Below are positions 22,386 to 58,788 of a stretch of DNA of 64,000 nucleotides, piece by piece. The translations under genes were made by a program, and so were the position numbers. The notes beneath the pieces were generated by a model. That model was not told the origin of the DNA, searched no databases, and saw only the letters and a program-made list of their open reading frames with translations. The stretch comes from Ilumatobacteraceae bacterium. Lineage in GTDB: Bacteria; Actinomycetota; Acidimicrobiia; Acidimicrobiales; Ilumatobacteraceae. Numbering within the stretch: position 1 is the first letter of the stretch; each line of letters opens with the position of its first letter. Location: NCBI GenBank assembly GCA_033344875.1, contig JAWPMO010000001.1, positions 4,861,595 through 4,925,594 on the forward strand. Direction: 5' to 3'.

Positions 22386-24404
22386 TCAGGTGGTGACGAG
22401 GAGGAACGCAAGAACGCGGGCTTCGTCGCGCCACGCCTCGTAGCGTCCGCTCGGCCCGGCGTGTCCTGCCCCCATCTCGGTGCGGAGGATCAGCGGCGCG
22501 TCGTTGGTGCGGACCTCGCGCAGCTTGGCGGCCCACTTCGCCGGCTCGTGATAGCTGACCCGCGGGTCGTTCAGGCCGGCGGTGATCATCAGCGCCGGAT
22601 AATCGCACGCGACCGTGTTGTCGTACGGCGAGTAGCTCGCGATGTACGACGCGGCGGGCTCGGCGCGTGGGTCGCCCCACTCCTCCCACTCGGTCACGGT
22701 GAGCGGCAGCGACGGGTCGCTCATCGTGGTCGTGACGTCGACGAACGGCACCTCGGCGACCGCGGATCGGAACCGCGCCGGATCGATCGTGACGCACGCT
22801 CCGACCAGCAGGCCGCCGGCGCTGCCGCCGCGGATCGCGACACGATCGGGGCTCGCGATGCCGGCCGACGTGAGGTGCTCGCACACAGCGAGCGTGTCGG
22901 TGAACGTGTTGCGCTTGGTGTGGAGCTTGCCGTCGAGGTACCACGACCGGCCGAGTTCGCCGCCCCCGCGCGGGTGGGCGAGGGCCCACACGACGCCACG
23001 GTCGAGCAGCGACAGTCGGGCGACCGAGAACCACGGCGGCATCGACACCTCGTACGACCCGTAGCCGTAGACGCAGCAGGGTGCGGTGCCGTCGACGGGG
23101 GTGTCGACGTGACGGACGACATCGACGGGAACCTGGGTCCCGTCGTCGGCGGTCGCCCAGTGCCTGCTCGCCACGTACCGATCGAGGTCGACATTGGGGG
23201 TCGGTGTCTCCTTGACGACGGTGATGTCACCGTTCGCCATGTCGACGTCGATGACGCGGGCCGGCGTGGTCAGGGACTGGTGGGTGAGTCGGACGACGTC
23301 GGTGTCCCACTGCTCGTTGGGCCCGAAGCCGACGTCGTGCGGCGTCGGGTCGATCTGGAGCATGCGCTCGCCGCCGTCTCGGTCGAGGACGCGGATCATC
23401 GGCTGCGCCCGGTTCCACTCGTGGACGGCGAGGAACCGCTCGAAGGGCTCGACCGCCGTGATCCGCCGACCCTCCTGGTGGGGGATCAGCTCCGACCATG
23501 TGCCGGGCTCGTCGTCGGCGGCTTCCATCACGCGGAAGTCGATCGCGTCGTCGTTCGTCACGATCACGAAGCGGTCGCCCCAATGGTCGATCTGGTACTC
23601 GACATCGTCGGTGCGCTCGCGCACGCACTGCGCGTCGGCGGTCGGATCGGCGGCCGGGACGAGCCGGCACTCCGACGATGTCCGGCTGCCCGAATGGATC
23701 ACGATCCATTCGGCGCTGCGGGTGGCGCCCACGCCGACGAAGAATCGTTCGTCGTGATCGGCGTAGACCTCGACGTCGTCGGCTTGCGGGGTGCCCAGTC
23801 GGTGGCGCATCACCCGGTACGGGCGCTCCTGCTCGTCGGCCTCGACGTAGAAGAGATGCGTCCCGTCGTGGCTCCACGCGGCGCCGGCCCACGTCGTGTC
23901 GAGCAGTTCGTCGTCGAGGTCGCGCTGGTGGGCGATGTCGCGGATTCGGAGGGTGTAGTGCTCGTCGCCGCTGGTGTCCATCGACCAGGCGACGAGGCGG
24001 TGGTCGGGGCTGATCTCGAACGCACCGAGGTCGAAGAACTCGTGCCCCTCGGCCTCGGCGTTCTGGTCGAGGACCAGTTCGTCGGTGGCGGTGGCCGCCG
24101 ACCGTCCGCGGCAGTGGATCGGGTACGACCGACCCTCCTCGGTGCGGGCCGAGTAGAACCACTCGGCCTTGGGCACCGGTGCCGCCACGTCGGTCTCCTG
24201 GACGCGCGACTTGATCTCCTCGAACAGCTCGGTCACGAGGTCGTCGTGGCCGGCGAAGAACTCGTCGGCGTAGGCGTTCTCGGCCTCGAGGTAGGCCGCC
24301 GTGTCGGGGTCGTCACGGTCGCGGAGCCAGGCGAAGTGATCGGGTACCTCGCCGGTCGGACGGTTCCAGACATGGGGTATGCGCTTGGCAGATGGCTCTG
24401 ACAC
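22386..24404 (-). CDS. ptrB: Oligopeptidase B (prolyl oligopeptidase family, S9A)
   Basis: A 672-residue serine peptidase that cuts short peptides after basic residues. An N-terminal seven-blade propeller (to about residue 400) is followed by the alpha/beta-hydrolase domain with catalytic Ser in RGGSAGGLLVGA, Asp in GLNDPRVSYHEP and His in EMGAGHAGPSGR. AHPRGGGELGRSWYLDGK is a family signature. No signal peptide, so cytoplasmic. GTG 24404 gives VSEPSAKRIPHVWNRPTGE, close to the usual N-terminus; the frame is open further up and the start is not certain. It is divergent from the ferredoxin gene. Confidence 0.92.
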   Translation of the reverse strand: MSEPSAKRIPHVWNRPTGEVPDHFAWLRDRDDPDTAAYLEAENAYADEFFAGHDDLVTELFEEIKSRVQETDVAAPVPKAEWFYSARTEEGRSYPIHCRGRSAATATDELVLDQNAEAEGHEFFDLGAFEISPDHRLVAWSMDTSGDEHYTLRIRDIAHQRDLDDELLDTTWAGAAWSHDGTHLFYVEADEQERPYRVMRHRLGTPQADDVEVYADHDERFFVGVGATRSAEWIVIHSGSRTSSECRLVPAADPTADAQCVRERTDDVEYQIDHWGDRFVIVTNDDAIDFRVMEAADDEPGTWSELIPHQEGRRITAVEPFERFLAVHEWNRAQPMIRVLDRDGGERMLQIDPTPHDVGFGPNEQWDTDVVRLTHQSLTTPARVIDVDMANGDITVVKETPTPNVDLDRYVASRHWATADDGTQVPVDVVRHVDTPVDGTAPCCVYGYGSYEVSMPPWFSVARLSLLDRGVVWALAHPRGGGELGRSWYLDGKLHTKRNTFTDTLAVCEHLTSAGIASPDRVAIRGGSAGGLLVGACVTIDPARFRSAVAEVPFVDVTTTMSDPSLPLTVTEWEEWGDPRAEPAASYIASYSPYDNTVACDYPALMITAGLNDPRVSYHEPAKWAAKLREVRTNDAPLILRTEMGAGHAGPSGRYEAWRDEARVLAFLLVTT

Positions 24405-24417
24405 GTGGAGCAGGGTA

Positions 24418-24426
24418 GGCGGTAGC
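24418..24426 (+). promoter_or_regulatory. Half copy of the Fe-S box upstream of ferredoxin
   Basis: GGCGGTAGC matches the centre and right arm of the ACTAC-N4-GTAGT element found at three suf promoters, but the left arm is not conserved. It overlaps the -10 hexamer TAGCTT (24423-24428) and lies 12 bases before ATG 24439, close to the spacing at sufD. Confidence 0.35.
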
Positions 24427-24438
24427 TTGGCTCGTGCG

Positions 24439-24777
24439 ATGCGCGTGTGGATCGACCAGGACCTCTGCACCGGTGACGGCCTGTGCGTCGATCACTGTCA
24501 CGACGTGTTCACGCTGCTCGAGGACGGGATCGCCTACGTGGTCGAGAACCAGCAGGTGCTCAACGATCCCGGGAGCTCCGGCAGCCTGGCCGAGGTCTCG
24601 CCCCGCAACGTTCCCGACGTGATCCGTGCCGCCGAGGTGTGTCCGGGGGAGTGCATCTTCATCGAGATCGACGCACCGCGCGACGCCGAGCTCGACGTGT
24701 CGGTCGACGGCAAGATCGCTGCCCGGATCGAGATCCGCGACGACCGCGACGACCTCGACGACGAAGCCGCGGCCTGA
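24439..24777 (+). CDS. Single-cluster ferredoxin with acidic C-terminal extension
   Basis: A 112-residue electron carrier. Cluster cysteines are in [11 protein letters not shown] near residues 9-19 and VCPGEC near 76-80, the arrangement of monocluster [3Fe-4S]/[4Fe-4S] actinobacterial ferredoxins. The C-terminal 30 residues are rich in Asp and Glu. TAGCTT lies 10 bases before ATG 24439 (leaderless type). It precedes sufB by 155 bases and carries a half Fe-S box, so it may be co-regulated with the cluster assembly genes. Its redox partner is not identifiable. Confidence 0.88.
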
Positions 24778-24873
24778 AGCCCGACCGCTCGGGTACACCC
24801 TCCTGGCGTCCAGCCGATCGGCGTCGAGGCGAACGATCCTCGTCCTGCCGTGGGCATCGGCTCGGGGATTGTT

Positions 24874-24887
24874 ACTATGGCGGTAGT
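24874..24887. promoter_or_regulatory. Fe-S box upstream of sufB
   Basis: ACTAT-GGCG-GTAGT is an inverted repeat with one mismatch in the left arm. The possible -10 GCAAAT (24888-24893) follows directly, leaving about 30 bases of leader with GGAG (24923-24926) before ATG 24933. The same element lies at the sufD and sufC2 promoters. Confidence 0.6.
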
Positions 24888-24932
24888 GCAAATACCTCGA
24901 TTCGCCCACACTGCACGGCACCGGAGCTGATC

Positions 24933-26336
24933 ATGACCTCGTTCGATCTCGACCTCAGCAAGTACGACCTCGGCTGGAACGACGAAGGCGTCGAGTACGC
25001 CTTCGAGCCCGAGAAGGGCATCAACCCCGGTGTCGTCGAGCAGATCTCGTGGTGGAAGGGTGAGCCGCGCTGGATGACCGACATGCGGCTGCGCAGCCTG
25101 CGCCTGTTCGAGCGCAAGCCGATGGCCGAGTGGTTCGCCGTCAACATGCCCGACATCGACTTCCAGGACATCTACTACTACCTGCGCCCCAAGGGCGAGC
25201 AGGTCAGCGAGTGGGACGAGCTGCCCGAAGAGATGATGCGCACCTACGAGAAGCTCGGCATCCCCGAAGCCGAGCGGCAGTACCTCGCGGGCGTGACCGC
25301 GCAGTACGAATCCGAGGTCGTCTACCACAAGAACCGCGAAGACCTCGAGGCCCAGGGGATCCTGTTCTGCGACATGGACACGGCGCTGCGTGAGTACCCG
25401 CACCTGGTCAAGGAGTACTTCGGCACGGTCATCCCCCCGGGCGACAACAAGTTCGCCGCCCTCAACACCTCGGTCTGGTCGGGTGGCTCGTTCATCTACG
25501 TGCCGCCGGGCGTCGAGGTCGAGATGCCGCTGCAGGCGTACTTCCGGATCAATTCCGAGAGCGCCGGTCAGTTCGAACGGACGCTGATCATCGCCGACGA
25601 GGGCTCCAAGGTCCACTACATCGAAGGTTGCTCGGCGCCGGTGTACACCAAGGACTCGCTGCACTCGGCCGTCGTCGAGATCGTCGTCAAGCCCAACGCC
25701 CGGGTGACCTACACCACGATCCAGAACTGGTCGCCCAACGTGTACAACCTCGTGACCAAGCGGGCACGCGTCGAGGCCCACGGCCACATGGAGTGGATCG
25801 ACGGCAACATCGGCTCCAAGCTCACCATGAAGTACCCGGCCGTGTACCTGGTCGGCGAAGGCGCCACCGGCGAAGTGCTCTCCGTCGCCTACGCCGGCGA
25901 GGGTCAGCACCAGGATGCCGGCGCCAAGATGGTGCACGCCGCCCCGAACACCACCTCCAAGATCGTGTCGAAGTCGATCAGCAAGGACGGCGGCATCACC
26001 ACGTACCGCGGTCTCGTCCGCGTCGACGAGGGAGCCACCGGCGCCAAGAGCCATGTCGAGTGCGATGCGCTCATCCTCGACGAGGACTCGGTCTCCAAGA
26101 CGCTGCCGTACATGGAGATCGGCGAACGCGACGCCCAGATCGGCCACGAGGCCACGGTCTCCAAGATCGCCGACGAGCAGATCTTCTACCTGACCAGCCG
26201 CGGCCTCTCCGAGGAGCAGGCGATGGGGATGGTCGTCAACGGCTTCATCGAGCCGATCACCAAGACGCTGCCGATGGAGTACGCCGTCGAGTGGAGTCGC
26301 CTGATCGAGCTGCAGATGGAAGGCTCGGTCGGCTGA
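24933..26336 (+). CDS. sufB: Fe-S cluster assembly scaffold protein SufB
   Basis: A 467-residue SufB, which with SufC and SufD forms the SUF scaffold that builds Fe-S clusters in the cytoplasm. [32 protein letters not shown] and [15 protein letters not shown] are family signatures. The Cys in SHVECDAL near residue 376 corresponds to the essential scaffold cysteine. Unlike most actinobacterial suf operons, sufB is not adjacent to sufD: a hairpin follows its stop and two unrelated genes intervene. No SufR regulator gene is upstream. GGAG lies 6 bases before ATG. Confidence 0.97.
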
Positions 26337-28404: not shown

Positions 28405-28767
28405 ATGCCCATGCGGACGGAGTGCAAGAACTTCGAGAGCCGCACATACCCGAACGGCGACACGGTTCGGAAGTGCAACCTCGACCTCGCCCCCGACGCC
28501 CCGTGGCGGTGCCCCGAGGAGTGCGTGGGGTACCAGCGTCGGCTCGCCGACCAGGCATGGACCCACGGCTCGCTGGTCGTGCCCCCGACGCCGCCCGAAC
28601 CCTCGTCGGTCGACGACGGCACCGCCGCCTCCCTGCTCGACGAGGCCGAGGACATCCTCAACGAGGCCGGTGCCCGCATCATGGCCGAGGTCAACGAGCA
28701 GCAGCTCGAAGAAGAGCGCCGGTCGCGTGGCCTCCGGCGGTTCCTCAAGCGTCGCCGCGATCGCTGA
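28405..28767 (+). CDS. Small four-cysteine protein between sufB and sufD
   Basis: A 120-residue soluble protein of no family I recognise. The N-terminal 45 residues hold four cysteines: ECKNFESRTY, VRKCNLDL and WRCPEECVGYQ, a spacing suited to zinc or an Fe-S cluster. The C-terminal half is acidic then basic, with a helical stretch (about 70-120) ending in RGLRRFLKRRRDR. TAGGAT (28392-28397) lies 7 bases before ATG 28405, so it has its own leaderless-type promoter. It ends 43 bases before the sufD start, and the Fe-S box lies in that gap. A role in Fe-S assembly is suggested only by position and cysteines. Confidence 0.75.
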   Translation: MPMRTECKNFESRTYPNGDTVRKCNLDLAPDAPWRCPEECVGYQRRLADQAWTHGSLVVPPTPPEPSSVDDGTAASLLDEAEDILNEAGARIMAEVNEQQLEEERRSRGLRRFLKRRRDR

Positions 28768-28782
28768 CCCGGTCGGATTTCC

Positions 28783-28796
28783 ACTACCGCCGTAGT
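28783..28796. promoter_or_regulatory. Fe-S box upstream of sufD (perfect copy)
   Basis: ACTAC-CGCC-GTAGT is a perfect inverted repeat. Its last T is the first base of the -10 hexamer TAGAAT, a typical place for a repressor to exclude RNA polymerase. Confidence 0.7.
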
Positions 28797-28801
28797 AGAA
28801 T
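28796..28801 (+). promoter_or_regulatory. -10 hexamer TAGAAT for sufD
   Basis: TAGAAT ends 9 bases before ATG 28811, so the sufD-Rieske-sufC transcript is probably leaderless. It overlaps the Fe-S box. Confidence 0.55.
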
Positions 28802-28810
28802 TCCCCTCCG

Positions 28811-29914
28811 ATGACTGTGCTGGACCTCGACCACCTCGACGCGATCGAACTGCCGACTGCCGATGAGGAGATCTGGCGTTACAGCCGCATCGGCGACCTC
28901 GACCTGTCGGCGTTCCGACGCGTCGACACCACGCCGGACGTCACCGGTCCGACCGAGTTCGTGCAGGTCGGTGGTGACGGCCTCGACCTGTTCCCCGATG
29001 ACACGCCCGACGTGTTCGCCGCGATCAATCTGCGGGCGGCGAGCCAGGTGCACGTCGTCGTGCCGGCCAACACCACGGTCGACGGGTCGATCGTCATCAC
29101 CCATACGGTGCCCGCCGACGGGTCGCTCGTGTCGCCACGCCTCGTCGTCGAAGCCGGCGACAACTGCGAGGTCACGATCGTCGAACGGTTCGTGTCGGCA
29201 GCCGACGGCGCCGCACTGGTCCTTCCGGTGCTGCAGATGGCCGTGGGCCAGGCGGCCCGCGTCAACTACCTCGCCGTCAACGAACTCAGCGAGCAGGCGT
29301 GGTCGATCGGGAACCAGCAGGCGGTGGGGCAGCGCGATTCGCAGACGCTGCTCGCGACCGTCGCACTCGGTGGCGACTACGCCCGCGTCAGCACCAACGC
29401 CCGGGTCTCGGGTCGCGGCGCATCCACCCGTCAGGTCGCCCTCTATTTCGCCGGCGGCACGCAGATGCACGACTTCCGCACCACTCAAGATCACGACGCG
29501 CCCAACACCAACAGCGACCTCCTCTTCAAGGGTGCCGTGCAAGATCATGCCGCCAGCGTCTACACCGGTCTGATCAAGATCCGTGAGCACGCCAACGGCA
29601 CGGCGGCGTACCAGACCAACCGCAACCTGACGCTCTCCGAGGGCGCCTGGGCCGAGAGCGTGCCGAACCTCGACATCCGCACCAACGACGTCAAGTGCTC
29701 GCACGCATCCACCGTCGGCCCCATCGACGAAGACCAGCGCTTCTACCTCGAGAGCCGCGGCGTCCAGCCCGAGATCGCCGAGCGTCTCGTCGTGCTCGGA
29801 TTCTTCGACGAGGTCCTGTCGCAGCTCCCGGCCCACGACCTCGCCGCCGAGCTCCGGGCCCGCGTCGCCGCCAAGCTGAACATCGGCGCCACCGACGAGG
29901 AGGCCACCTCATGA
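28811..29914 (+). CDS. sufD: Fe-S cluster assembly protein SufD
   Basis: A 367-residue SufD, partner of SufB and SufC in the SUF scaffold and linked to iron entry. The conserved C-terminal core LDIRTNDVKCSHASTVGPID contains the His used at the SufB-SufD interface, and FYLESRGVQPEIAERLVVLG follows as in the family. It starts 43 bases after the four-cysteine gene and overlaps the Rieske gene by four bases (ATGA), so sufD-Rieske-sufC form one operon. Confidence 0.96.
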   Translation: MTVLDLDHLDAIELPTADEEIWRYSRIGDLDLSAFRRVDTTPDVTGPTEFVQVGGDGLDLFPDDTPDVFAAINLRAASQVHVVVPANTTVDGSIVITHTVPADGSLVSPRLVVEAGDNCEVTIVERFVSAADGAALVLPVLQMAVGQAARVNYLAVNELSEQAWSIGNQQAVGQRDSQTLLATVALGGDYARVSTNARVSGRGASTRQVALYFAGGTQMHDFRTTQDHDAPNTNSDLLFKGAVQDHAASVYTGLIKIREHANGTAAYQTNRNLTLSEGAWAESVPNLDIRTNDVKCSHASTVGPIDEDQRFYLESRGVQPEIAERLVVLGFFDEVLSQLPAHDLAAELRARVAAKLNIGATDEEATS

Positions 29915-30246
29915 GCACCGCAACCACCACGGTCTGTGCACTCGACGAGCTCGAGCCGGGCACCGCTCGCAAGTTCGACGTCGGCGGCATCGCCGTCGCG
30001 GTCGTCCGCATCGACGACGACGTGTACGCGATCGGCGACGTGTGCAGCCATGCCAACGTGTCGTTGTCCGAGGGTGAGGTGTGGTGCGACGAGAAGGAGC
30101 TCGAGTGTCCCAAGCACAGCAGCGCCTTCAGCCTCGTCACCGGTGAACCGCAGACGCTCCCGGCCACGCAGCCCGTGCCGGTGTTCGATGCATCGGTCGT
30201 CGACGGCAGCATCGTCGTGTCGGTCGCTCTGGAGGTGGAGTCATGA
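29911..30246 (+). CDS. Rieske-type [2Fe-2S] ferredoxin of the suf operon
   Basis: A 111-residue Rieske protein. The cluster ligands are in CSHANVSLSEGEVW and ECPKHSSAF (C-x-H and C-x2-H). There is no membrane anchor, as in non-haem dioxygenase-type ferredoxins. It overlaps both sufD and sufC by ATGA, so the three are translationally coupled. Such a ferredoxin is common between sufD and sufC in actinobacteria and is thought to supply electrons or accept a cluster; that role is not shown here. Confidence 0.93.
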   Translation: MSTATTTVCALDELEPGTARKFDVGGIAVAVVRIDDDVYAIGDVCSHANVSLSEGEVWCDEKELECPKHSSAFSLVTGEPQTLPATQPVPVFDASVVDGSIVVSVALEVES

Positions 30247-31028
30247 GCACCCTGAAGATCGAGAACCTGCACGCCACGGTCGGCGGCAAGGAGATCCTGA
30301 GGGGCATCGACCTGACGATCTCGTCGGGCGAGGTCCACGCCGTCATGGGGCCGAACGGCGCCGGCAAGAGCACGCTGTCCGCGGTCATCATGGGCAGGCC
30401 CGGCTACGAGGTCACCGAGGGATCGGTCACGCTCGACGACGTCGACGTGCTGGCGCTGCCGGCATGGAAGCGCGCCGTCGCCGGTCTGCACCTGGTGATG
30501 CAGTACCCGACCGAAGTGCCCGGCGTCCTGCTCGACGACGTGCTCGGCGAGGCGCTGACCAGCCGTGGTCGCGACATCTCCGGCCTCGGCGACGTGCTGC
30601 GGACCGAGGCCGCACGCATCAACTTCGAAGAACGGTTCCTCCATCGGCCGCTCAACGTCGACCTGTCCGGCGGCGAGAAGAAGCGCAACGAGACCCTGCA
30701 GCTCGCGGTGCTCCAGCCGAAGATCGCGATCCTCGACGAACTCGACTCCGGCCTCGACATCGACGCGCTCCGCGACTGTTCGCGGCGGGTCGAAGACCTC
30801 AGCAACGAAGGTGATCTCGGGGTGCTCGCCATCACGCACTACAGCCGCCTGCTGACCGAGCTCAAGCCCGACCACGTCCACATCCTCGTGAAGGGTCGGA
30901 TCGTCACCTCCGGCGGGCCCGAACTCGCCGATGTGCTCGAGTCCGACGGGTACGGAGCCTTCGTGCCCGACGACGACGCCGACGAACCGGCCTCGTCGGG
31001 CGGGCTCGACGACCTGTTCGCCCTCTGA
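30243..31028 (+). CDS. sufC: Fe-S cluster assembly ATPase SufC (first copy)
   Basis: A 261-residue ABC-type ATPase that drives the SufBD scaffold. Walker A is GPNGAGKST near residues 38-46, signature LSGGEKKRNETLQ, and Walker B ILDELDSGLDIDALRD, followed by ITHYSR. Length is normal. It is the last gene of the sufD operon, followed by a hairpin. A second SufC with intact motifs is encoded at 56509-57279, so the genome has two ATPases for one visible SufBD pair. Confidence 0.95.
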   Translation: MSTLKIENLHATVGGKEILRGIDLTISSGEVHAVMGPNGAGKSTLSAVIMGRPGYEVTEGSVTLDDVDVLALPAWKRAVAGLHLVMQYPTEVPGVLLDDVLGEALTSRGRDISGLGDVLRTEAARINFEERFLHRPLNVDLSGGEKKRNETLQLAVLQPKIAILDELDSGLDIDALRDCSRRVEDLSNEGDLGVLAITHYSRLLTELKPDHVHILVKGRIVTSGGPELADVLESDGYGAFVPDDDADEPASSGGLDDLFAL

Positions 31029-54798: not shown

Positions 54799-55242
54799 TC
54801 AGGAATCGGGTGACTCGAGTGCCTCGAGGAGGGTGTTCCAGGCGAGGGTGGCGCACTTGATGCGGACGGGGAACTTGACGACGCCCTGGAGCGCCTCGAG
54901 GTCACCCAACTCGACGTCGTCGACCGGGTCGTCGCCCTCGGTCTCGATCGACATCATGCCCTTGAACCGGCGCACGAGCGCTCGGACCTCGGCCACCGAC
55001 TTCCCCTTCACCGCGGCGCTCATCATCGATGCCGACGACTGCGAGATCGAACAGCCTTGGCCGCTGACCTTGACGTCGTTGACGGTGTCGCCGTCGACGT
55101 CGAGGTAGACGGTGATCTCGTCGCCGCACAGTGGGTTGTGACCCTCGGCGTGACGCGCCGGGGGCGGCAACTCACCGCGGTTGCGGGGGGTGCGGTAGTG
55201 ATCGAGGATGATCTCGCGATAGAGGTCTTCGAGGCCTGGCAT
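54799..55242 (-). CDS. sufU: Fe-S assembly sulphur carrier / zinc-dependent sulphurtransferase SufU
   Basis: A 147-residue SufU that accepts sulphur from SufS. LYREIILDHYRTPRNRG is the family N-terminus. The three cysteines are in HNPLCGDEITVYLD, GQGCSISQSS and IKCATLAWNTL, and the Asp next to the first Cys completes the zinc site. The roughly 19-residue insertion separating SufU from IscU is present (KGKSVAEV onwards). It lies 31 bases after sufS. Confidence 0.95.
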   Translation of the reverse strand: MPGLEDLYREIILDHYRTPRNRGELPPPARHAEGHNPLCGDEITVYLDVDGDTVNDVKVSGQGCSISQSSASMMSAAVKGKSVAEVRALVRRFKGMMSIETEGDDPVDDVELGDLEALQGVVKFPVRIKCATLAWNTLLEALESPDS

Positions 55243-55273
55243 GGGTGTCTCCCGCAGTCGAGGGGCGGCTCGG

Positions 55274-56506
55274 TCAGAGACCGAAGATATCGGTGGCGCC
55301 GTCGAGCGCATCGGTCAACGCGTCGACGTCGGAACGGTCGTTGTACAGGTAGAGGCTCGCCCGGGCGGTGGCGTTCGCTCCGAGGATGCGCATGAGCGGC
55401 TTGGCGCAGTGGTGCCCGGCCCGGACGCACACGTTGCGCTCGTCGAGGACCTGGCTGACGTCGTGCGGATGGATGTCGCGGAACGCGAAGCTGAGCACGC
55501 CGCCGCGGACCTCGACGTCGTCGGGCCCGTGGATCGTGATGCCGTCGCCGTACCGCCCCTTGAGCGTGTCGATCGCGTACCTGGTGAGTTCCATCTCGTG
55601 GTGACGGATCTCGTCCATGCTGATCGCCTCGAGGTACTCGACGGCAGCGCCGAACCCGATGACGTCGACGATCGGGGGAGTGCCGGCTTCGAACTTGGCC
55701 GGGACCGGCGCGGTGGTGAAACCGTCGAGGCGGACGTCGGCGATCATGTTGCCGCCGCCGATGTAGGGCGGCATCGCACCGAGGAGCTCCATGCGCCCCC
55801 AGAGCGCTCCGACGCCGGCCGGACCACACATCTTGTGGCTGGAGAACGCCACGAAATCGGCGTCCCACGCCTGGAGATCGGTCGGATTGTGCGGCACGTA
55901 CTGGCACGCATCGACGACCGCGATGGCGCCGGCGTCGTGCGCCGCGTCGACGAGCCGCCGGACCGGTGTGATCGTGCCGAGCACATTGCTCATCGCCGTG
56001 AACGACAGCACCTTGGCGCCATCGAGCAGACGATCGAGGTCGGTGAGATCGAGCTGGCCGTCGCTCGTCAGTGGGATCCAGCGGATCTCGGACCCGGTCC
56101 GAGTGGCGAGGATCTGCCACGGCACGATGTTGGCGTGGTGCTCCATGTGGGTGAGCACGATCGCGTCGCCCTCGCCGAGGTTCGAGCCGCCCCACGACGA
56201 TGCGACCAGGTTCAGCGCCTCGGTCGCGTTCTTGGTGAACACGATCTCGTCGGCACGCGGCGCGTTGACGAGCCGAGCGACGGCGGATCTGGCGCCTTCG
56301 AAGCGATCGGTGGCCTCGCCGGCGAGCCGGTACGCACTGCGATTGATCGGGGCGTAACCGGTGCGGACGAAATGGTCCATCGCCTCGATCACCTGGACCG
56401 GCTTCTGCGAGGTGTTGCCCGAGTCGAGGTACACGATCGGAGCACCGTCGATCTCGCGGCGGAGCACCGGAAAGTCGTTGCGGACGGCAGCCCAGTCGAC
56501 GCCCAT
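55274..56506 (-). CDS. sufS: Cysteine desulphurase SufS
   Basis: A 410-residue PLP enzyme that takes sulphur from cysteine for Fe-S clusters. The PLP-binding Lys is in FSSHKMCGPAGVGALWG near residue 224, the catalytic Cys in VRAGHHCAKPLMR near 366, and the cofactor-stacking His in THMEHHANIVPWQ. Length and the N-terminus VRNDFPVLRREIDGAPIVYL are typical. It starts 2 bases after the sufC2 stop and precedes sufU. Confidence 0.96.
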   Translation of the reverse strand: MGVDWAAVRNDFPVLRREIDGAPIVYLDSGNTSQKPVQVIEAMDHFVRTGYAPINRSAYRLAGEATDRFEGARSAVARLVNAPRADEIVFTKNATEALNLVASSWGGSNLGEGDAIVLTHMEHHANIVPWQILATRTGSEIRWIPLTSDGQLDLTDLDRLLDGAKVLSFTAMSNVLGTITPVRRLVDAAHDAGAIAVVDACQYVPHNPTDLQAWDADFVAFSSHKMCGPAGVGALWGRMELLGAMPPYIGGGNMIADVRLDGFTTAPVPAKFEAGTPPIVDVIGFGAAVEYLEAISMDEIRHHEMELTRYAIDTLKGRYGDGITIHGPDDVEVRGGVLSFAFRDIHPHDVSQVLDERNVCVRAGHHCAKPLMRILGANATARASLYLYNDRSDVDALTDALDGATDIFGL

Positions 56507-56508
56507 CG

Positions 56509-57279
56509 TCAGCTGGTCACCTTGAACGCCTCGTAGCCGTCGCGTTCGAGCTGCTCGACGAGCTCCATGCCGCCGGACTGGACGATGCGCCCGTCGACGA
56601 GGATGTGAACGTGGTCGGGCTGGATCTCGTCGAGGAGCCGCTGGTAGTGCGTGATGAGCACCACGCCCATCCCTGGCCGCTCGTTGCGGACCTCGCGGAT
56701 GCCCTGGGCGACGATCCGAAGCGCGTCGATGTCGAGTCCGGAGTCGGTCTCGTCGAGGATCGCGAGCTCGGGCTCGAGGATCGCCATCTGCATGATCTCG
56801 TTGCGCTTCTTCTCGCCGCCGGAGAATCCTTCGTTGAGGTAGCGGTCGACGAACGACGAATCCATGCCGAGCCGCTTCATCCAGTCCATCGTGGCGAGCC
56901 GCAGTTCGAGCACCGACAGATCGACGCCCTTGCGTGCGGACAGCGCTGCCCGCAGGAACTGGATCACCGAGACGCCGGCGATCTCCTGGGGGTACTGGAA
57001 CGCCAGGAACATGCCGGCCTTGGCGCGCTCCTCGGTGGGCCAATCCGTGACGTCGTCACCCTGGAACGTGATCGAACCGGAGGTGACCTCGTACTCGGGT
57101 GAGCCGAGCAGCGTGGTGCCGAGGGTGCTCTTGCCCGACCCGTTGGGCCCCATGATCGCGTGCACCTCACCCGCCTTCACGGTCAGTGAGAGGCCTCGGA
57201 GGATGTCGTCAGCGGGGGTCGCACCCGGCTCGGTGGTCGGTCGGGCGTGCAACCCATCGACCTGAAACAGCTCGGTCAT
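56509..57279 (-). CDS. sufC: Fe-S cluster assembly ATPase SufC (second copy)
   Basis: A 256-residue ABC ATPase. Walker A GPNGSGKST near residues 44-52, signature FSGGEKKRNEIMQ, Walker B ILDETDSGLDIDALRIVA and ITHYQRLL are all intact. It is closer to textbook SufC than the copy at 30243-31028 and has a 10-residue N-terminal insertion. It heads the operon sufC2-sufS-sufU. GGAG precedes ATG 57279, and the Fe-S box with -10 GATAAT (57309-57314, minus strand) lies just upstream. Confidence 0.95.
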   Translation of the reverse strand: MTELFQVDGLHARPTTEPGATPADDILRGLSLTVKAGEVHAIMGPNGSGKSTLGTTLLGSPEYEVTSGSITFQGDDVTDWPTEERAKAGMFLAFQYPQEIAGVSVIQFLRAALSARKGVDLSVLELRLATMDWMKRLGMDSSFVDRYLNEGFSGGEKKRNEIMQMAILEPELAILDETDSGLDIDALRIVAQGIREVRNERPGMGVVLITHYQRLLDEIQPDHVHILVDGRIVQSGGMELVEQLERDGYEAFKVTS

Positions 57280-57314
57280 GGTCTCCAGTCTACGATGCAG
57301 GGGTCGGGATTATC

Positions 57315-57328
57315 ACTACGGCGGTAGG
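57315..57328. promoter_or_regulatory. Fe-S box in the divergent sufC2 / LCP promoter region
   Basis: ACTAC-GGCG-GTAGG is the third copy of the ACTAC-N4-GTAGT element, with one mismatch at the end. On the minus strand it directly precedes GATAAT, the likely -10 of sufC2-sufS-sufU. On the plus strand AGAAAT follows it, 5 bases before the GTG of the LCP gene, so one site could affect both promoters. Confidence 0.6.
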
Positions 57329-57339
57329 AGAAATAGCTC

Positions 57340-58788
57340 GTGCACACGGAGATCGCGGCCACGCTGGTGGCACCCGGCTGGGCGGCGCGCGAGCGGCGAC
57401 GCTCGGTGGCGATCGCGATGCTGGTCGTCGGCGTCGGTCTGCCCCTGCTCATGGCGCTGTACGTCGTCGTGGGGGGCCGCAGTTGGGTGGCGCTCACACT
57501 CGACCGAGAGTTCCTGGGGCTGGTCGTACTGGTCGGCTGCCTCGGCATCGCGGTTCGGCTCGCGGCGTTGGTCGAGGTGTGGCTCGCGGCAGGCAGACGG
57601 CGGTCGCTCGATCGCATCGAGACCGCAGCGGCGGTGGTGGCGATGGTCGGACTGATCGCCGGCAGCGTGGCGGTGGTGGAGGTCGGCCGGGCGCGGGCCG
57701 CGCTCGCCCCGACGTTCACCGCGACGGCGGGTGAGCCACTCTTCGATCCTGATCGGCCGGTCACGTCGGCGCCGGTCGAGTCGACCGCACCGGTGACGAC
57801 CGCGGCAGCAACGACCACGTCGACGACCCGACCCGACCTCGAACCGAGGGGCGGTGTCGGCGAGATCGTGGTCGTGACGACCACGACCACGACGTTGCCG
57901 CCGAAGCCGGCGCAACCCGATAGCGGTGTGAGCGCCGCAGACCTGGCCGACGTGACGACCGTGCTCCTGCTCGGCGGTGACGCCGGGCCGGGACGTGGCG
58001 GCCTGCGGACCGATTCGATGATGCTGTTCAGCCTGCACCGGCCATCCGGCCGGGCGGCGCTGATCTCGATCCCGCGCAACCTGGAACGGCTGCTGTTCCC
58101 GCCGGGGAGCGCGCTCGAATCGTCGTACCCGTACGGGTTCGGTGACATCGCCAACGCCGTGTACCCCATCGTCTCCTCGCGCGGGAGCCTGCGCGACGCG
58201 TACGCGGTCGGCGACATCCGCCCCGGGGTCGTCGCCATCGCTCAGGGCATCGGCTACTCGCTCGACGTCAAGATCGACGACTACGTGCTCGTCGACATGC
58301 AGGGGTTCCTCGACCTCATCGACGCGATCGGTGGGGTCACGCTCACCCTCACGTCGGCGATCCCGATGCCGGGCAACGTCCCGGGTGCGCGGACCCAGTA
58401 CCCCGACACGATCGGTCCGGGCGTGGTCCAGATGGACGGATCGACCGCGCTCGGGTACGCGCGCAGCAGGAAGGGTGACAACGACTACCGGCGGGCGCGT
58501 CGCCAGCGCGATCTGCTCGCAGCCCTCGCGCAGCAGGTGTCGCTCACCGATGTGGCCCTGTCGTTCGGGTCGGTGGCCGCGGCGATCGGGGGCACGCTGC
58601 GCACATCGCTGACACCCGACGAGCTCACCGAGACCCTGAACGTGATCGGCGGTGAGACGGCGATCGTCGAGTCGGTCGGACTCGTCCCGCCCCTGGTCGA
58701 CGTGCGGCGACCCGACTACGACGCGATGGCCAAGATCGTCGGTGCGGTCCACATGGCGCTCGTCACCGGCGCGAGCTCCGGCTACTGA
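57340..58788 (+). CDS. LytR-CpsA-Psr (LCP) family protein, copy 1
   Basis: A 482-residue membrane-anchored enzyme that ligates polymers such as arabinogalactan or teichoic-type glycans to peptidoglycan. Three N-terminal membrane segments (about 23-45, 57-84, 93-115) are followed by a Thr-rich linker (about 145-190) and the LCP domain: LLLGGDAGPGRGGLRTDSMM, LISIPRNLERL with the catalytic Arg, and YARSRKGDNDYRRARRQRDL. GTG 57340 is close to the divergent suf promoter. The tandem copy downstream is clearly paralogous. Confidence 0.9.
   Translation: MHTEIAATLVAPGWAARERRRSVAIAMLVVGVGLPLLMALYVVVGGRSWVALTLDREFLGLVVLVGCLGIAVRLAALVEVWLAAGRRRSLDRIETAAAVVAMVGLIAGSVAVVEVGRARAALAPTFTATAGEPLFDPDRPVTSAPVESTAPVTTAAATTTSTTRPDLEPRGGVGEIVVVTTTTTTLPPKPAQPDSGVSAADLADVTTVLLLGGDAGPGRGGLRTDSMMLFSLHRPSGRAALISIPRNLERLLFPPGSALESSYPYGFGDIANAVYPIVSSRGSLRDAYAVGDIRPGVVAIAQGIGYSLDVKIDDYVLVDMQGFLDLIDAIGGVTLTLTSAIPMPGNVPGARTQYPDTIGPGVVQMDGSTALGYARSRKGDNDYRRARRQRDLLAALAQQVSLTDVALSFGSVAAAIGGTLRTSLTPDELTETLNVIGGETAIVESVGLVPPLVDVRRPDYDAMAKIVGAVHMALVTGASSGY

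Follow-up and report, generated by a model that had tools for sequence, protein, structure and literature searches.

Among the regulators of suf genes, the SufR proteins provide the closest described systems. As far as the accessible parts of the sources go, the operator of cyanobacterial SufR is CAAC-N6-GTTG (PMC8593673), the same sequence is quoted for SufR of Streptomyces avermitilis (PMC11995493), and in Synechocystis the sufR gene is divergent from sufBCDS (PMC6034842). For SufR of Mycobacterium tuberculosis, C203, C216 and C244 are given as the proposed ligands in the available portion of PMC6034842. A 2021 review, in its accessible text, describes SufR in only two Actinobacteria and calls suf control unknown in most Gram-positives that do not have SufR (PMC8593673).

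Here we analysed a stretch of 64,000 nucleotides (the window, G000:C1:4861595-4925594) from the genome of an Ilumatobacteraceae bacterium (G000; a single contig of 4,968,626 bases), in which three suf promoters share a palindrome. In our reading, to which we assign a probability of about 0.86, this palindrome would be the operator of a SufR-type, Fe-S-sensing winged-helix repressor that controls the suf genes. A search of the literature, covering chiefly openly accessible papers, found no description of this regulon and no paper in which SufR and the Acidimicrobiia are named together.

Palindromic sites in the window and the genome

The three 14-bp dyads of the window were found where the initial annotation had located them (Table 1), and all three are embraced by a 26-bp inverted repeat, ATT-N4-CTA-N6-TAG-N4-AAT, from whose consensus the sufD operator departs by one mismatch. 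The gene names sufB, sufD and sufC2-sufS-sufU were likewise borne out by TIGR and Pfam profiles. The third site had been described as standing before sufC2-sufS-sufU; its position was right, and its setting is now corrected to the region between sufC2 and a divergent LytR-CpsA-Psr family gene, for which a share in the operator may be a matter of location alone. A LytR-CpsA-Psr gene adjoins the operator in G006 as well.

Table 1 Candidate operators, neighbouring genes and the gene of the SufR-like protein
Feature	Coordinates	Strand	Evidence
Operator at sufB	24868..24893	.	Dyad 24874-24887 = ACTATGGCGGTAGT; 26-bp pattern and matrix score of 37.7 bits
Operator at sufD	28777..28802	.	Dyad 28783-28796 = ACTACCGCCGTAGT; matrix score of 36.0 bits
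Operator at sufC2-sufS-sufU	57309..57334	.	Dyad 57315-57328 = ACTACGGCGGTAGG; matrix score of 38.8 bits
sufB	24933..26336	+	TIGR01980, 703 bits; SUFBD_core
sufD	28811..29914	+	TIGR01981, 232 bits (cut-off 222)
sufC, 3' of sufD	30243..31028	+	TIGR01978, 271.7 bits (cut-off 212.8)
sufC2	56509..57279	-	TIGR01978, 317.9 bits (cut-off 212.8)
sufS (approximate start)	55274..56479	-	Aminotran_5, 444.6 bits; between sufC2 and sufU
sufU (approximate start)	54799..55311	-	TIGR01994, 167.1 bits (cut-off 92.5)
LytR-CpsA-Psr family gene	57340..58788	+	PF03816, 86.3 bits; divergent from sufC2
SufR-like gene	L001:1526-2242; G000:C1 4260610 onwards		238-residue protein; dyad at L001 1501-1514

The window also carries two sufC genes, one with sufD and the other with sufS-sufU, both above the TIGR01978 cut-off; the SUF system is split here, and its ATPase is duplicated. 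Immediately upstream of sufD, a 120-aa cysteine-containing protein is encoded (28405-28767); it has no Pfam match at E<=0.001 and is kept at the same place in relatives, with matches of 56-79% identity. A 4Fe-4S ferredoxin gene (24379-24777; Fer4_15, 64 bits) is located directly upstream of the sufB operator.

What marks the operator is its genome-wide rarity, its placement and its length. The loose dyad (ACTAC-N4-GTAGT with up to two mismatches) shows no enrichment within the window, where 4 matches compare with 6.36 expected in shuffles, and the 26-bp pattern, also with up to two mismatches, matched the three suf sites in the window and nothing in each of 100 shuffles. Over the whole 4.97 Mb, exact ACTAC-N4-GTAGT occurs in two copies, at sufD and at C1:4260585, and with at most one mismatch at 11 sites, compared with 83 for the reversed control. 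The degenerate pattern ATTNNNMCTAYNNNNRTAGK, which has ATT in front, gave six strand-hits at four places in a full count of the genome (control, 0), namely the three window sites and C1:4260585. The shorter MCTAYNNNNRTAGK (MCTAY-N4-RTAGK) was mismatch-free at the same four places among the matches listed (100 of 206), a set taken as complete because the matches came in order of fewest mismatches and reached 4.92 Mb. The distribution is thus not random, all four places being suf or sufR promoters. When a matrix was built from 98 sites outside the family Ilumatobacteraceae, the window operators scored 36.0-38.8 bits and the next window position -8.4; in 100 simulated windows, where the positions scored were those with part of the core, none of these pre-filtered positions exceeded 2.7 bits.

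That the dyad sits against or over the -10 box, as had been claimed, is right as a prediction. The predicted hexamer TACTAT (24873-24878) coincides with the left half of the sufB operator, GATAAT is placed on the minus strand at sufC2 (57314-57309), and TAGAAT at sufD (28796-28801) leaves 9 nt to the ATG, so that a leaderless or near-leaderless mRNA appears likely there. Consensus sequences made by promoter class showed a constant 26-bp frame, within which the predicted -10 falls in the left half for the sufB class (TTGTTACTAT), whereas it stands immediately to the right of the dyad in the sufR (TAGAAT) and sufC2 classes; in G000, both sufD and sufR have the right-hand AAT one base out of register. 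A constant frame with a moving -10 points away from a promoter signature and towards an operator, and would favour repression by occlusion. The median distance from the dyad centre to the match-derived start was 33 at sufR, 34 at sufC2, 50 at sufB and 44 at sufD. We also considered compensatory change between the dyad halves and rejected it (outer pairs 45/34/31/21, inner pairs 36/35/31/29), as no covariation between halves was seen at the four variable dyad positions in 145 unique sites.

The SufR-like gene and the conservation of the candidate operator

The fourth genomic site lies about 630 kb from the suf loci; it is a perfect copy of the dyad, 11 bases upstream of a SufR-like gene. In the retrieved locus (L001), the dyad is followed by TAGAAT and then by the ATG at 1526, and from the distance between the two this gene likely looks leaderless. 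Its opposite-strand neighbour is the Fe-S carrier gene apbC (ApbC/Mrp; PF10609, 293 bits; PF01883, 57 bits). The N terminus of the encoded protein is a winged helix (PF12840 HTH_20, 37 bits, cut-off 27), its Pfam matches at E<=0.001 do not include PF02082 (Rrf2), and a canonical SufR profile search had its best match in G000 at this gene (E=7.7e-26). No SufR-like or Rrf2 gene was found in the window, in line with the initial annotation; all profile and protein matches in the genome fall elsewhere.

All 30 of the 30 aligned orthologs keep three cysteines of the SufR-like protein, C186, C199 and C234, at spacings of X12 and X32-34. The extra cysteine that forms C-X3-C ahead of C-X12-C is missing from all 14 Acidimicrobiia rows of a 40-row alignment, and also from the operonic SufR rows L335, L340 and L341, so it is not universal in operonic SufR. 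Of the 14 Acidimicrobiia rows, 12 have HPNVARHHL(D/E) as the putative recognition helix, and the other two deviate from it by one residue. An AlphaFold model of an 87% identical ortholog has the order helix-helix-helix-strand-strand at a weak pLDDT of 65.4, and no PDB match was obtained by fold at E<=0.001 or by sequence at E<=0.01, the first-ranked fold match being a weak one to an ArsR repressor (E=0.0088); structural use was therefore limited to the winged-helix assignment.

The pattern ATTNNNMCTAYNNNNRTAGK was matched in 64 of the 79 genomes of the order, with 221 strand-hits compared with 12 in the reversed control, and a match to the SufR-like protein was present in 70 of the 79 at E<=0.001 and in 57 at E<=1e-50. 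Of 145 unique sites retrieved from order and class, 131 were at suf or sufR/apbC genes (45 sufB, 41 sufC2, 29 in the apbC/sufR intergenic region, 12 sufD, 2 sufS, 1 sufC and 1 apbC) and 14 were elsewhere, a neighbour being counted when its match-derived start fell -70 to +200 nt from the dyad centre with more than 55 bits. The 145 sites were drawn from loci retrieved for part of the matches listed, and protein-matched sufR loci with the pattern were included, so that sufR is favoured.

Counts at sufB and sufR loci picked by protein match, not by motif, are fairer than the tally of 131/145, these loci being best matches rather than a random draw. With a matrix blind to sufB sites, an operator of at least 15 bits within 200 bases of the start was present at 27 of 30 sufB genes, which demonstrates the conservation at suf promoters of relatives that the initial annotation had proposed to check. 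The three without it are from G035, G076 and G037, in none of which the regulator was matched at E<=1e-50; G055 (86% complete) bears the operator and likewise gave no regulator match at that threshold. With a matrix blind to sufR sites, the operator was found within 300 bases upstream in 22 of 30 orthologs of the order and in 76 of 79 loci from named genomes, mostly Ilumatobacteraceae and their kin (80 named loci less L268, whose upstream sequence was short), and the reversed control gave 0 in both sets. For the other 8 of the 30 orthologs, the 300 bases upstream contain no operator, and none lies upstream of the regulator homolog of G250 (L388, 193.8 bits); autoregulation is therefore not universal.

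At wider range, pattern matches in a scan of 396 genomes of the phylum concentrate, by eye, in the family and the order. They are patchy in the eight genomes of the class outside the order: suf-gene sites were found in G094 (5 strand-hits) and G250 (10), G134 and G372 had one strand-hit each, G272 had two compared with four control hits, and G122, G398 and G407 had no pattern match. In G134, CCTATCCGGATAGT lies upstream of a sufR homolog and a 26.2-bit site is found at sufB (L315). Beyond the class the pattern does not rise above the reversed control by eye; a few genomes there gave several hits, those of G169, for example, being of one repeated sequence. A SufR-type regulon with a distinct operator that spans the order and part of the class is well supported.

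Nine of the 14 sites elsewhere have no recognised iron or Fe-S neighbour and were treated as chance (L134, L146, L147, L149, L150, L151, L152, L168 and L172). Other sites are located about 156 nt upstream of a ferredoxin gene related to the ferredoxin upstream of the window's sufB (L153, in G048), upstream of an ABM-domain gene (L173), at a SufE gene with a divergent rhodanese gene in another order of the class (L174), at a ferritin gene with a divergent solute-binding protein gene (L175), and at an imelysin gene, where 12 of 13 positions are symmetric (L178). The last two are from G250, a genome of another order that has six sites and the same putative recognition helix as given above; one site of this genome, tallied under apbC (L176), also faces an A-type carrier (Fe-S_biosyn) gene. 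The G250 sites suggest that regulation of the SufR-like kind may reach further into iron homeostasis, and the best reading of their neighbours is that one lineage has probably added ferritin and putative iron-uptake genes to the regulon.

In G073, G045, G010, G113, G122, G079 and G088, the sufB matches fell in two or three pieces within one longer frame (851-1269 aa), with breaks near SufB residues 118-126 and/or 294-295. This looks like putative inteins at two insertion sites in these Actinobacteria.

Co-occurrence, proposed mechanism and alternatives

Across the 79 genomes of the order, the motif was present in 55 and absent from 2 of those in which the ortholog was found, and present in 9 and absent from 13 of those in which it was not found at E<=1e-50 (Fisher p=1.5e-7, relatedness not corrected). 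Among the nine motif-bearing genomes with no ortholog, G055 and G062, both with suf sites, are incomplete. In G032 a site at sufB goes with no more than a 41% homolog, the pattern sites of G020 and G073 are away from suf genes, and G039, G060 and G071 have a pattern match and no strong ortholog, the positions of their sites not being among the matches listed. When genomes were chosen for the missing ortholog, the sequence upstream of sufB scored below 0 with the matrix in 11 of 12 loci, three of the 12 having a sufB merely 42-47% identical to that of G000; the exception, G004, has an operator at sufB and no strong ortholog. One natural replacement is seen in G187, a 99% complete genome of the same family with no motif site, whose best regulator match has E=7.5e-24 and whose best sufB is 42% identical to that of G000; beside this sufB, on the opposite strand, is a canonical-type SufR gene (canonical profile E=7.9e-33).

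These results bear on the undescribed Fe-S regulon that the initial annotation had put forward. A shared regulon is strongly supported. Of the two outcomes that the initial annotation had named as refuting it, a random distribution of the motif and a lack of conservation at suf promoters of relatives, neither was observed. The regulator is not of an unknown kind but probably SufR-like: the promoter of the SufR-like gene itself bears this operator, and genomes with no ortholog are more often operator-free (13/22 vs 2/57). Given the common site at three suf promoters and its copy at the SufR-like gene, sufB, sufD, sufC2-sufS-sufU and the SufR-like gene very probably form one self-adjusting regulon. 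Direct support comes from the sites, their rarity, gene context and conservation, the site in the regulator's own promoter, the three cysteines and the co-occurrence; from these we infer the dimer, the binding, the repression, the Fe-S ligation and the signal. A dimer of the cluster-bearing (holo) protein would bind ATT-N4-CTA-N6-TAG-N4-AAT at or against the -10 and shut off its own gene along with sufB, sufD(C) and sufC2-sufS-sufU, and possibly the divergent apbC as well. Upon loss of the cluster under iron shortage or oxidative stress, the apo-protein would release the DNA, and the assembly genes and sufR would be expressed.

Among the alternatives, it is quite improbable that the SufR-like protein binds the operator and activates, or that it senses something other than Fe-S, such as a metal ion or thiol oxidation through its cysteines. 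The absence of the first of the four cysteines of several canonical operonic SufR proteins and the weak ArsR fold match lean that way, but the operators overlap or abut the -10 box, which would be the usual position for repression, the C-X12-C spacing is as in SufR, and the genes targeted serve Fe-S assembly, joined in G250 by ferritin and putative iron-uptake genes.

IscR and other Rrf2-family regulators tune Fe-S assembly to supply, belong to another protein family than the SufR-like regulator, and have published motifs that are not known to match the present dyad. We consider it very improbable that such an IscR/NsrR-like protein reads the palindrome with the SufR-like gene as merely another target. 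G000 does have several Rrf2 genes above the Pfam cut-off, among them one only 5.6 kb past the end of the window (G000:C1:4931223-4931609, 111 bits), but none of its four operators is at an Rrf2 gene. Moreover, every one of the 22 genomes queried gave an Rrf2 match, in 21 of them above the cut-off, and the motif-free G187, G035, G056 and G059 are among the 22, so that Rrf2 presence does not track the motif, whereas that of the SufR-like gene does.

A promoter signature (a conserved -10 with its flanks) or chance is scarcely credible as the source of the similarity. In its favour, every promoter class has the predicted -10 overlapping or adjoining the site, and the loose pattern shows no enrichment in the window. 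Against it, the 26-bp frame stays constant although the predicted -10 falls in the left half for sufB and at the right end for sufR and sufC2, the site occurs at only four places in the genome, and scores are negative at 11 of 12 sufB loci of genomes chosen for the missing regulator. A BlaI/MecI-type repressor had also been guessed from the dyad; a literature search on it gave nothing useful, and the genomic operator copy at the SufR-like gene makes that reading unnecessary.

The SufR-type repressor may further stand for a larger pattern, which we put forward tentatively, at a little under even odds. Acidimicrobiales and some other Acidimicrobiia would use a second, non-orthologous family of Fe-S-sensing repressors with its own operator code that replaces canonical SufR and coordinates multi-locus suf; in at least one other order it would act as a wider iron regulator (ferritin, putative iron uptake, A-type carrier and suf), and regulator, operator and native suf would form a module whose parts can disappear jointly, G187 being the example, where another suf system with a canonical-type SufR of its own stands in their place.

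Comparison with known SufR systems

The SufR-like protein shares with the operonic SufR of Streptomyces avermitilis, Corynebacterium glutamicum and Mycobacterium tuberculosis, as described in the accessible parts of the three sources, a winged-helix N terminus, C-terminal cysteines that match those for [4Fe-4S], the cluster being putative here, and the placement of the operator, which in the operonic systems overlaps the sufR -10 and controls suf and sufR itself (PMC11995493, PMC8593673, PMC6034842). Its C-X12-C spacing equals the first spacing of the proposed M. tuberculosis ligands in the available portion of PMC6034842. An Fe-S-sensing suf repressor with autoregulation, as in cyanobacterial SufR (TIGR02702), is what we likewise propose here, although the SufR-like protein scores far below the TIGR02702 (SufR_cyano) cut-off (27.8 vs 178.8 bits, E=1.7e-6). 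Two operonic actinobacterial SufR proteins, at 70.3 and 79.8 bits, are also below it.

Unlike operonic sufR, which lies directly before sufB, the SufR-like gene is unlinked to suf and divergent from apbC, and its candidate regulon has several dispersed operators in place of one operon. Several operonic SufR proteins have four cysteines, the first of which the SufR-like protein does not have; operonic homologs in relatives carry (C)xxHHC-type cysteine motifs. In a tree of 40 homologs, which is unrooted and has several long rows and long branches between the two clades, 14 Acidimicrobiia proteins formed one clade (95/94) and nine operonic SufR another (100/100).

The operators differ as well: the dyad departs from the published SufR motif, as the initial annotation had stated, with CAAC-N6-GTTG given for S. 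avermitilis and ATT-N4-CTA-N6-TAG-N4-AAT found here. Exact CAAC-N6-GTTG was present in two of six operonic sufR upstream sequences inspected (CAACAATGGCGTTG in L326, from a 9.2-Mb genome, and CAACACGAATGTTG in L341) and not in those of L331, L332, L334 and L308; the window has no exact copy, and L001 has one at 87-100, away from the sufR promoter. In another actinobacterial group (family f79), SufR homologs are divergent from sufB (L295, L297, L298 and L299), with neither CAAC-N6-GTTG nor the present dyad within 230 bases upstream; this group possibly has another operator type. The homologs L301 and L302 have the helix HPNVARGHL, yet no such dyad is found in the 230 bases inspected, which counts against a simple helix-operator rule.

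For one actinobacterial group there are now a candidate for the regulator, a precisely defined operator, a list of targets and a set of natural losses. Within one sensor superfamily, the operator CAAC-N6-GTTG is set against CTA-N6-TAG, and the putative recognition helices differ too, HPNVARHHLD being found here and forms such as APAGVRRHLD or APAGVRRHLDAL in operonic SufR.
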